Source: Candidatus Altarchaeales archaeon A3
GTDB lineage: Archaea > Altiarchaeota > Altiarchaeia > Altiarchaeales > Altiarchaeaceae
Reading direction: 5' to 3'
DNA length: 10,341 nt
Assembly (NCBI GenBank): GCA_002083985.1
Contig: MTER01000089.1
Location: 1 to 10,341, forward strand
In this document: positions 3,617-6,542 of the stretch, piece after piece
How the letters are laid out: each line of letters starts with the position of its first letter
How positions within the stretch are numbered: position 1 is the stretch's first letter
Made by a program: the position numbers and the translations under genes
The notes under the pieces: generated by a model
Seen by the model: the letters and a program-made list of their open reading frames with translations, nothing else
What the model was told of the DNA's origin: nothing
Databases searched by the model: none

Positions 3617-4816
3617 ATGAAAAAACAAAACGCGGTATTATTTTTAGCGTTAAAGGACACATTCAAAGACAAGGGGATGTTTCTGTTGGTAGTTGGAATT
3701 TTAGCATTGAGTTATGTCAACATTATTTTCTTTTCAGGATTTATCGCGGGAATGACAAACACAGTTCAGGACCAGATAATAGGTGTTATGTCCGCACATA
3801 TCCTGATTATACCAAAAGAAAATCATGAGTACGTTGAGCATGTTTCAAGCATACAGAAAAAGATTGAAGTAATCCCCGGGGTTGTTGCATCCGCACCACA
3901 CAATGAGATGGGTGGGACTATAAAGTATAAATCAAAAAGCATACGGGTTGGCCTGACTGGAGTGACGCCCTCCTTGGAGAAGAGAGTTACAGAGATCCCA
4001 TATAAAGTTGTGGAAGGTGAATTTTTAAGTGATTCGGATACAGGTGAGGTGTGTATTGGGATTAACCTGCTCTCTGACGAGTCTGGCGGTGATACAGAGC
4101 GTTCAAGGGGGGAGTTAGGAAATATAGGGGTGGGCGACAGAGTGACAATCACACACAGTAATGGTGTTGTTAAGGATTATAGGGTTAAATGTATATTGGA
4201 TGCAGGTTTTGATGTTGTTGATGGCGGTGTGTATTTAACAACAAAAGAGGTTGAAGAAGTATATGGGATTGAAGATAAGGCCTCACAAATTTTAATTAAA
4301 ATTGCCGATAAGAACGCAGTAGAAGAATATAAACTTAAGGTAATGCAGGAAAATGTTGGAGGAGATGTTAAAACATGGAAGGATTTCGTGGGGTTTGTTG
4401 AACAGATGGTTCAGACATTGGACAGTACAAGGATAATAATGAGTATCGTAGGGATATTAACTGCAGTCATGACAATAGGGATTATAATTTATATTAATAC
4501 TCAAAACAAAAAGCGGCAGATAGGAATACTTAAAGCAATCGGGGCAACAGATAACACGGTTTTGAAGATTTTTTTGCTGGAATCTGTTCTTTTTGGTTTA
4601 GTTGGTGTAATTATAGGAGTTATTGCCGGGCAAGCAGTAACATACTACTTCAACCAAAATCCCGTAAGTATGCCCATGGGAGAGCTTAAACTTGTCCTGG
4701 AACCTGCCACTATGATTATTTCGGCAGTGGTGCTTTTGATGGGAGTAATCGCGGGAGGAATGTATCCCTCATGGAGGGCAGCAAAAATAGATATAGTGAA
4801 GGCGGTGTGGGGGTGA
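3617..4816 (+). CDS. ABC transporter permease, FtsX/MacB (LolC/E) type
   Basis: The product is 399 residues from the ATG at 3617, 4 bases after the ATPase stop. An in-frame TTG at 3587 lies inside the ATPase gene and is rejected. The layout is that of the MacB/LolCDE (type VII) group: a first membrane helix at about 20-43, a large extracytoplasmic MacB_PCD-like region at about 45-270, then three helices at about 271-294, 317-342 and 363-383 (FtsX domain). The C-terminus GGMYPSWRAAKIDIVKAVWG is the usual family ending (PxxRAAxxDxxxA). The sequence KKRQIGILKAIGAT at about 298-311 is the usual coupling segment after the second helix. A hydrophilic stretch SDESGGDTERSRGELGN at about 153-169 looks like a loop insertion in the periplasm-like domain. 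Such proteins use ATP to move their external domain rather than open a channel. The substrate is unknown; a lipoprotein or lipid is the family precedent. Confidence 0.93.
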   Translation: MKKQNAVLFLALKDTFKDKGMFLLVVGILALSYVNIIFFSGFIAGMTNTVQDQIIGVMSAHILIIPKENHEYVEHVSSIQKKIEVIPGVVASAPHNEMGGTIKYKSKSIRVGLTGVTPSLEKRVTEIPYKVVEGEFLSDSDTGEVCIGINLLSDESGGDTERSRGELGNIGVGDRVTITHSNGVVKDYRVKCILDAGFDVVDGGVYLTTKEVEEVYGIEDKASQILIKIADKNAVEEYKLKVMQENVGGDVKTWKDFVGFVEQMVQTLDSTRIIMSIVGILTAVMTIGIIIYINTQNKKRQIGILKAIGATDNTVLKIFLLESVLFGLVGVIIGVIAGQAVTYYFNQNPVSMPMGELKLVLEPATMIISAVVLLMGVIAGGMYPSWRAAKIDIVKAVWG

Positions 4817-5014
4817 TTTTAGAGAATAAATTAAAAGTATGAAGTGTTATAAACGGTATAAAAAGTATATACAAAAAATTGATGAATACTCACGAAGTAC
4901 GAAATGTATTTGATAAGACAAAAATTTAACTATCTAAATAAATACTAAAAAAATAAAAAGGAAAATGAATGGAAAAACAAGTAAAACAGGATTTAGATTT
5001 TCTGGATTAAAAAA

Positions 5015-5104
5015 TATAATAGACATGTTGCAAAATAACTTTTTCACCTTTAAAATTTTTAATTTGCACCTTTAAAATTTTTAATTTGCAACAACTCTAA
5101 TATT
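5015..5104. mobile_element. MITE-like element 1 with 23-bp imperfect terminal inverted repeats
   Basis: The left end (5015-5037, containing TAATAGACATGTTGCAAAATA) and the right end (5082-5104, containing GCAACAACTCTAATA) are inverted repeats matching at 18 of 23 positions. The same left core and right core occur in the element at 6347-6542. Only about 45 bases lie inside, made almost entirely of a perfect 22-base tandem repeat. It encodes nothing and would need a transposase in trans. Exact boundaries and target duplication cannot be set in this AT-rich context. Confidence 0.7.
5045..5088 (+). repeat. Perfect 22-bp tandem repeat, two copies
   Basis: The unit starting CACCTTTAAAATTTTTAATT occupies 5045-5066 and 5067-5088 with no mismatch. 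It fills the interior of the small element at 5015-5104, and the end of the second copy (AATTTGCA) merges into the right terminal repeat. It probably arose by slippage. Confidence 0.95.
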
Positions 5105-5113
5105 CAATTTTAC

Positions 5114-5160
5114 TGAAAACTATGAGTTTTCAATCTTTAAAAATCTTTTGGATTTTTAAA
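5114..5160. repeat. Two adjacent perfect stem-loops
   Basis: TGAAAAC 5114-5120 pairs with GTTTTCA 5126-5132 across a 5-base loop. TTTAAAAATC 5136-5145 pairs with GATTTTTAAA 5151-5160 across TTTTG. They lie just right of the MITE-like element and read the same on either strand. They may be remnants of further small elements. No function is evident. Confidence 0.65.
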
Positions 5161-5199
5161 TGAGATTTCTTTTAAGCATTTTCAAATAAGAAAATTTTA

Positions 5200-5224
5200 A
5201 AATATCCGAGCATCAGCGAGGTGA
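5200..5224 (+). repeat. Short repeat, copy 1
   Basis: AAATATCCGAGCATCAGCGAGGTGA is the most divergent of three copies of a motif whose clearest copy contains CCGAGCGAAGCGAGGTGA. The GC-containing core stands out sharply from the AT-rich surroundings. It runs directly into the 13-bp palindrome at 5223-5251. Confidence 0.6.
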
Positions 5225-5251
5225 TTTAAAAATTTCAGAAATTTTTAAATC
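5223..5251. repeat. 13-bp perfect palindrome with 3-base loop
   Basis: GATTTAAAAATTT at 5223-5235 pairs with AAATTTTTAAATC at 5239-5251 around CAG. It lies exactly between copies 1 and 2 of the short GC-containing repeat, so copy 1, palindrome and copy 2 form one compact unit of about 70 bases. It could fold as RNA or extrude as DNA. Confidence 0.85.
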
Positions 5252-5270
5252 TCCGAACGAAGTGAGGTGA
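5247..5270 (+). repeat. Short repeat, copy 2
   Basis: AAATCTCCGAACGAAGTGAGGTGA differs from copy 3 (6403-6426) at only two bases. The central GAAG lies between short GC arms that can form a small GCGAAGC-type hairpin in the best copy. It lies about 47 bases from copy 1. Confidence 0.8.
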
Positions 5271-5469
5271 GATTTTTAAAAGATATCCTGTAAATTAATT
5301 AATCTAATTTAAAGAGATGAGCAACTACTTTTATTTTTCGCCCGCATTTTTATTTTTAAGAAAAAGGCGGAATGCAGTAATAAATTTTACCGTAAACATT
5401 TGTCCTTTCTTTTCTCACAATTCCGAAAATTCCGAATGCTTCCTTTACTTTTCTGTGAATTTTCATATT

Positions 5470-6270
5470 TTAATGCTTCGGATTTATATGGACATTATAA
5501 ATTTCTCCCTCCATATCTGCGAGCGTGCAGGCGACAATTGCCAGTGCTTTTTCAACAGCATACTGATTTGTTCCCGTAATCTCTACGAATAAATTTTTTG
5601 TTCCTGTAGTTACCTTTGTGCGGTCGGCATTTATGATGGGTGGCATCGAAACCGCATCGTTATTTGCATCAACAATAAGCGGAAATTTATCAAAATTTTT
5701 TATTATCTTTCCATACTCAATTCCTTTCGGATGCTTTCTTAAAATTTCATCCAAATACATATCATCCGCAAAATTTAGCGGAATCAATTTATAGTCCGTC
5801 GGCTGGACTGCTTTATAGGTAACGGGAAAATTTATAACATCCAAATTGTGTATTCCTATGGCAACTTTTTTCCTGTTCCTTCCGTGCGTAATATGTAGTT
5901 TCTCCTGAATATTCATCAGGGATTTTAGTCGTGCATCCGTGATATTTAAATTTTTCACTATTGCAGAAGATATAAATGGCCTGATTTCTTTAATGGACTT
6001 ATCAACAAAAATTTTACATTCCTTCATCTCATCCCTAACTTCATATTGGGCAACATCTTTTTTTATCCCTAAAAAATTTCTCAATGCCCGCGCAAATCCC
6101 TCAACGCACAGCATATCGGGCCTGTTTGGAAAAATTTCCATTACTGCTTTATCCTTGTCAAGACATTCCATATCAACTCCGAGCATAGGAATCCTTTCCC
6201 TCAAAAAATTTAAGTCGCTAACTCCTGTTAATTCAGTTAATTCGTTTGTGTTAAATTCTACCGTTGGCAT
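5470..6270 (-). CDS. pheT: N-terminal half of phenylalanyl-tRNA synthetase beta subunit (B1 and B3/B4 editing region only)
   Basis: The product is 266 residues; archaeal PheT is normally about 550. The start MPTVEFNTNELTELTG is the standard PheT beginning. B1 spans about 1-75 (IPMLGVDMECL, FPNRPDMLCVEGFARALRNFLG). The B3/B4 region spans about 98-262, with the archaeal/eukaryotic hallmarks KVAIGIHNLD, HPKGIEYG, SMPPIINADRTKV and LFVEITGTN; this domain clears Tyr-tRNA(Phe). The protein ends INPKH-TAA where the B5, B6 and catalytic-like B7 core and the B8 region should follow. Neither the continuing frame nor the adjacent minus frame down to about 5280 resembles them. It could be a genuine split subunit, a free-standing editing protein, or a truncated copy left by rearrangement. 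The preserved frame and motifs argue against long decay. It is bracketed by two related MITE-like elements (5015-5104 and 6347-6542). Confidence 0.88.
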   Translation of the reverse strand: MPTVEFNTNELTELTGVSDLNFLRERIPMLGVDMECLDKDKAVMEIFPNRPDMLCVEGFARALRNFLGIKKDVAQYEVRDEMKECKIFVDKSIKEIRPFISSAIVKNLNITDARLKSLMNIQEKLHITHGRNRKKVAIGIHNLDVINFPVTYKAVQPTDYKLIPLNFADDMYLDEILRKHPKGIEYGKIIKNFDKFPLIVDANNDAVSMPPIINADRTKVTTGTKNLFVEITGTNQYAVEKALAIVACTLADMEGEIYNVHINPKH

Positions 6271-6346: not shown

Positions 6347-6542
6347 ATTAATAGACATGTTGCGAAATAATTTTCAATCTATTGTTATTTTAAATTTATT
6401 TAAAATCTCCGAGCGAAGCGAGGTGACAATATATTCACAATTATGAATTTTTTCCACCATAAAAAAATAAATTTTAGATAGTTTGTATATTGTTGGGGTA
6501 TAAAATAACCCATATCAACTATTTCGCAACAACTCTAATAAA
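6347..6542. mobile_element. MITE-like element 2 with 23-bp terminal inverted repeats
   Basis: The left end (6347-6369, containing TAATAGACATGTTGCGAAATA) and the right end (6520-6542, containing TATTTCGCAACAACTCTAATA) are inverted at 19 of 23 positions. The left core matches element 1 with one mismatch over about 21 bases, and the right core GCAACAACTCTAATA is identical to element 1. The 150-base interior encodes nothing. It contains the palindrome TTTTAAAT/ATTTAAAA (6388-6405) and copy 3 of the short GC-containing repeat. The right end lies 46 bases before the SNF2 start and the left end about 77 bases before the PheT start, so the element occupies the shared divergent promoter region. Confidence 0.75.
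6403..6426 (+). repeat. Short repeat, copy 3 (clearest copy)
   Basis: AAATCTCCGAGCGAAGCGAGGTGA lies inside MITE-like element 2. It matches the copy at 5247-5270 at 22 of 24 bases, and the copy at 5200-5224 less well. The GCGAAGC core is a sequence known to form very stable small hairpins. Confidence 0.8.

Follow-up and report, generated by a model that had tools for sequence, protein, structure and literature searches.

The N-terminal pheT half and its surroundings

The window, i.e., the whole stretch of 10,341 bp analysed here, is the complete contig C89 of a 65% complete bin of 1.45 Mb (1.447 Mb) in 209 contigs (genome G000), and its host organism can be assigned by sequence to Altiarchaeota. 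It carries the front half of pheT, the gene for the beta subunit of the tRNA-charging enzyme PheRS (Table 1). The encoded protein aligns to the curated archaeal PheT model (TIGR00471, pheT_arch) over positions 1-261 of 551 with 318.5 bits (E 7.4e-95), and with the N-terminal half of the model it passes the cut-off of 282.65. No match to B5 or the catalytic-like core was found in the window's chain past model position 261. Matches to the Pfam domains B3_4 (PF03483, 27.6 bits) and PhetRS_B1 (PF18262, 22.2 bits) are slightly below their respective cut-offs of 29.3 and 26.8. The closest solved structure is 2cxi, an N-terminal fragment of Pyrococcus horikoshii PheT (E 1.9e-49), to which the best predicted model of the half aligns with a TM of 0.87 by query length (Foldseek). 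This model, built from a 6-sequence alignment, has a mean pLDDT of 81, with residues 127-133 and 183-191 below 50; the other four models reach 57-77.5. As the matches to TIGR00471, Pfam, 2cxi and the predicted model agree, B1 and B3/B4 are present in the protein and B5 is missing, and the initial annotation as an N-terminal PheT half ending at a domain boundary proved correct.

Its observation that no second half follows likewise holds. Positions 4816-5470, downstream of the gene, are about 650 bp of AT-rich DNA lacking a long ORF and a second pheT half, with a short remnant of a purF-like gene. One Cys position of this remnant reads Phe, and the replaced residue is presumably the catalytic Cys of purF. 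An intact purF lies at the matching place in the related genome G001 (L069:8391-9941; TIGR01134, 464 bits), and none was found in the 65% complete bin of G000. The pheT half is further flanked by short MITE-like elements, whose end motif AWTAGASWTGTTGC occurs in 184 copies in the bin (94 and 90 by strand) versus none for the pattern read backwards.

Table 1. Positions of the pheT half and its flanking features in the window, and of PheS in the same genome
Feature	Position	Strand	Remarks
pheT N-terminal half	5470..6270	minus	266 aa; PheT B1 and B3/B4 editing domains; own ATG start and stop
Stop codon of the pheT N half	5470..5472	minus	at the B3/B4-B5 domain boundary; all 24 complete free-standing N halves have 263-272 aa
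purF-like 5' remnant	5359-5466	minus	36 codons, after the pheT half
Short MITE-like elements	5018-5101 and 6350-6539		matching inverted ends AWTAGASWTGTTGC, flanking the pheT half
PheS of G000	C41:3081-3887		293 bits (PF01409), 499-aa frame, third contig

The second half and PheS

The rest of PheT is encoded in the same bin as a free-standing ORF of 299 aa on contig C158, which comprises B5 and the core. It aligns to TIGR00471 positions 274-548 with 248.7 bits, below the full-length cut-off of 282.65, and also aligns with the C-terminal portion of PheT chains of solved structure. Coverage of the model by the two halves is complementary and non-overlapping, with 12 model positions between them. 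G000 contains a single B3/4 match, the one in the window, and a single strong PheT-core match on the other contig. A full-length pheT was not found in the 65% complete bin, either as the only or as a second copy, and neither was a complete parent synthetase, which would be expected beside a stand-alone trans-editing protein. Three readings had initially been offered for the half-gene: a split subunit, an editing protein acting alone in a genome that also has a full pheT, and a recent truncation. Only the split subunit is sustained, with the C half present in the same assembly and the same end point recurring throughout the phylum; the other two are not supported.

PheS, the partner in a heterotetrameric PheRS, is likewise encoded in G000 (Table 1). 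Across the phylum a PF01409 match of at least 280 bits is present in 24 of 29 genomes and PheS lies in pieces in G005 and G013; G014 and G025 have a match of a weaker, non-PheS-like kind only, and none was found in G019. No pheS adjoining either half was seen in the phylum genomes. Only in G012 does a PheS-like match of at least 280 bits share the contig of a half; it lies about 25 kb from the C half. Many of the genomes encode a further PF01409 protein with a lower score (about 97-149 bits, in most cases in frames of 480-560 aa, e.g., G000:C66:1732-2385), which could be SepRS.

Distribution of the split in Altiarchaeota

Among 29 surveyed Altiarchaeota genomes including G000, the N-terminal part was matched in 27. 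Complete free-standing N halves with their own stop occur in 24 genomes of six families and, counted from the conserved MP start, are 263-272 aa long, so the half-gene with the same stop recurs in relatives of the window's genome. The N half is cut by contig ends in G021 and G024 (in the latter as two pieces, both at contig ends), G004 has a fused pheT in a 575-aa frame, and G016 and G022 have no N-half match. Full-length free-standing C halves are present in 21 of the 29 genomes, the aligned stretch overrunning the gene's stop in G008 and G024. C halves in pieces at contig ends occur in G017, G020 and G028, and no C half was found in G018, G019, G021 and G025. The genomes with missing halves (G016 and G022 for the N half, the latter four for the C half) are incomplete (70-81%), and the absence could be real in some of them.

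Both halves are complete in 18 genomes. They lie on separate contigs in 16 and share one contig in two, where they are about 355 kb (G012, a single contig of 1.39 Mb) and about 449 kb (G010) apart. Each split genome has one N-part locus only, the two pieces of G024 being contig ends, and the N half is therefore the only source of B1-B3/B4 domains found. Among named assemblies, the N-half loci nearest to that of the window belong to three Candidatus Altarchaeum (78, 81 and 85% identity), followed by an Altiarchaeales assembly (51%) and a record labelled Euryarchaeota archaeon (48%).

A search of 197 genomes gave a match in 196 and none in G051; outside the phylum, every one of the higher-scoring matches listed has an open frame of at least 531 aa. 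A genome outside the phylum, G053, displays a fused pheT frame with a single in-frame TAG in its N-terminal part (G053:C1:257994-259655), which comprises 558 aa when read through and 382 aa in the downstream part. Its halves are contiguous, so it is not the Altiarchaeota split.

Gene neighbourhoods

The C half is directly followed by the gene for the release factor aRF1 on the same strand at 16 of 20 loci examined by clustering (all but one of the 21 loci with a full-length C half), the identity of aRF1 being based on two cluster members that matched TIGR03676. The exceptions are G003, in which two fragments of another gene lie in between, G026 and G009, in which other genes follow, and G000, in which the contig ends behind a 353-aa gene after the C half. 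This gene (L089:168-1229) has a relative in G003, preserved in fragments (L092:7336-8207), and its protein has no NCBIfam match. Of the 24 split N loci, 20 were examined, and in 12 of these a TrkH-like gene is positioned head-to-head with the N half, with a small ORF between them in three; of these TrkH-like proteins one member was tested and reached 289 bits with TIGR00933, below the cut-off of 331. In the window's genus a gene for an SNF2 helicase takes the head-to-head position in G000, G001 and G003. A tblastn search with a single reference each for aRF1 and the TrkH-like gene, at E 1e-10 or better, detected neither gene in the stretches of 7-16 kb taken around the fused pheT of 15 outgroups and of G004.

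Selection and editing-pocket residues

Both halves are under purifying selection. Pairwise dN/dS (YN00) in the six species pairs among four species of the window's genus lies at 0.09-0.19 in the N half and at 0.19-0.27 in the C half, and G000 is 78-85% (N half) and 79-86% (C half) identical to its three congeners. We take Leu202, Ser211, Asp234 and Thr236 of P. horikoshii PheT to be editing-pocket positions. S208, N214 and T232 of the N half, the equivalents of Ser211, Asn217 and Thr236, are unchanged in all 24 split N halves. At the Asp234-equivalent position 18 of the 24 carry E and six carry D, and two of six fused sequences have E as well; at the Leu202-equivalent position 22 carry I, one L and one F. 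Asn217 has been described as an editing-site residue (PMC3275996).

The two halves of G000 appear to have different closest relatives, namely G003 for the N half and G002 for the C half. The C half (L089:1252-2151) is 85% identical to that of G002 versus 78% to that of G003, and HMG-CoA synthase, encoded beside the C half, and aIF5B of G000 are closest to G003, as is the N half. On these comparisons, one of the two halves may have been exchanged between members of the genus.

Probable time and number of fissions

A PheT tree of 30 sequences, 18 from split genomes with both halves and 12 fused, recovers all split sequences as a single clade (90/87; present in 84% of 200 bootstrap trees), a moderate support that is under the strict mark of the tool; G010 was flagged for its odd letter make-up. 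The fused G004 is the next branch to this clade (95/90). As a species marker we chose aIF5B, since EF-2 is cut in G004 (208 of 720 positions). For this tree 34 loci were taken and 31 sequences used: the outgroups G031, G040 and G045 were dropped because they had no frame with the searched motif, and, of the 28 phylum genomes besides G004, 22 were in, leaving out G021, G022 and G025-G028. A branch with 100/99 support sets the 22 genomes apart from G004 and eight outgroups, and G004 does not group with the rest of the phylum; the midpoint root, which falls on the long branch leading to the window's genus, is without meaning.

The position of G004 outside the split clade makes a single fission likely, and the simplest reading of the trees is that it postdates the divergence of the G004 lineage. 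Conversely, the phylum may have been split ancestrally, and G004 may have re-joined the halves or imported a fused pheT. Such a history would fit the assignment of G004 and the split genomes to one class. We nevertheless consider it very unlikely, as G004 belongs neither to the split clade of the PheT tree nor to the group of the other phylum genomes in the aIF5B tree, one fission suffices, and its pheT adjoins the split ones in the tree and not a distant donor.

Proposed function of the two halves

That the window holds the front half of an essential synthetase subunit, and that two distant genes make up the PheRS beta subunit in Altiarchaeota, is in our view practically certain. We propose that pheT was ancestrally fused and was cut, in the simplest case a single time, in the linker that joined the editing domain to B5, and that the two pieces then came to lie far apart in the genome. 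The N half (B1-B3/B4) would bind the C half (B5-core) and PheS post-translationally, which would rebuild a PheRS of the (alpha-beta)2 type as six chains of three polypeptides. PheS and the C half would charge tRNA-Phe, and Tyr-tRNA-Phe would be hydrolysed in the B3/B4 pocket of the N half. For this reading as a whole, i.e., a split beta subunit, its fission after G004, and assembly with PheS with editing by the N half, we estimate a probability of about 0.85.

Its main rival is free editing in trans, in which the N half, not stably bound to the synthetase, would hydrolyse Tyr-tRNA-Phe released by an enzyme of PheS and the C half, much as other editing proteins that stand free act on their own tRNAs. 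The N half gene is indeed unlinked from both the C half and pheS, and the predicted fold weakly matches the free-standing deacylase CtdA (E 5e-5 to 8e-5, TM 0.37-0.43). We regard a free factor as unlikely, however, considering that B1 is kept in the N half, that its end point is uniform and its conservation strong, and that each split genome has one N-part locus. Still another explanation, that the gene was recently truncated or is a pseudogene, or that sequencing or assembly went wrong near position 5470, could draw on the fragmented bin with its 209 contigs and on the decayed purF-like and repeat DNA directly downstream. It has a vanishingly small probability: the end point is shared by complete free-standing N halves in 24 of the 29 genomes, the 24 coming from six families and five of them being named public assemblies, and dN/dS is low in the genus. 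A recent truncation, assembly join or pseudogene at 5470 was thus rejected on the phylum-wide end point and the low dN/dS.

The split has implications beyond the window. A near-universal synthetase subunit is naturally cut exactly between its editing and core domains, and the cut marks one archaeal group. Conservation of the split suggests that the editing and core parts need no covalent link. Proofreading might even be separable, such that the editing half is regulated and exchanged apart from the charging half with its aRF1-linked gene; we hold this to be improbable, and if true, fidelity and capacity of PheRS would be tunable apart in Altiarchaeota. In any case the halves are ready-made separate proteins for asking if PheRS editing works in trans.

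Comparison with known systems

The split of pheT in Altiarchaeota has been known since 2016 and is confirmed here. According to Bird et al. 2016 (PMC4975002), the same split is a synapomorphy of Altiarchaeales with read support, based on a genome set that includes CG_SM1 (1.46 Mb, 220 contigs) and MSI_SM1. The same text infers that the halves assemble (the subunit 'recombines post-translationally') and states that their relative placement could not be determined. The initial annotation knew of no free B1-B3/B4 unit, and to regard such a unit as unprecedented is wrong given this earlier description. As far as that text goes, the split agrees with the present one in lineage, in the cut just before B5, in the two non-adjacent genes and in conserved residues; in G000, too, the cut lies just before B5 and the halves are two separate, non-adjacent genes. 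Because the split was already reported, the gain here is the wider sampling, the likely time of fission (after G004) and the conserved neighbours. Specifically, we add to that account a set of 29 genomes, two same-contig distances, a fused outgroup and the genes conserved beside the halves; the linkage to aRF1 and TrkH, the distances between the halves and the fused G004 do not appear in the portion of Bird et al. covered here (PMC4975002). No experimental follow-up of the split pheT was found in the literature covered, to which most subscription papers do not belong.

The N half shares its sequence, predicted fold and most editing-pocket residues with fused archaeal PheT (TIGR00471) and with 2cxi. 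The latter is a 348-residue fragment extending past the end of the window's protein, and its residues 280-348 match the C half; unlike 2cxi, the natural N half ends before B5. Synthetases in two pieces are also known from the split LeuRS of Aquifex aeolicus and the split AlaRS of Nanoarchaeota (PMC4975002), which are other enzymes and events independent of the split pheT. A PheT-like fold outside a synthetase occurs in LRRC47 and CtdA, neither of which is a PheT half itself: the former is by name a leucine-rich-repeat protein, and the latter is far more distant (7-8% identity).
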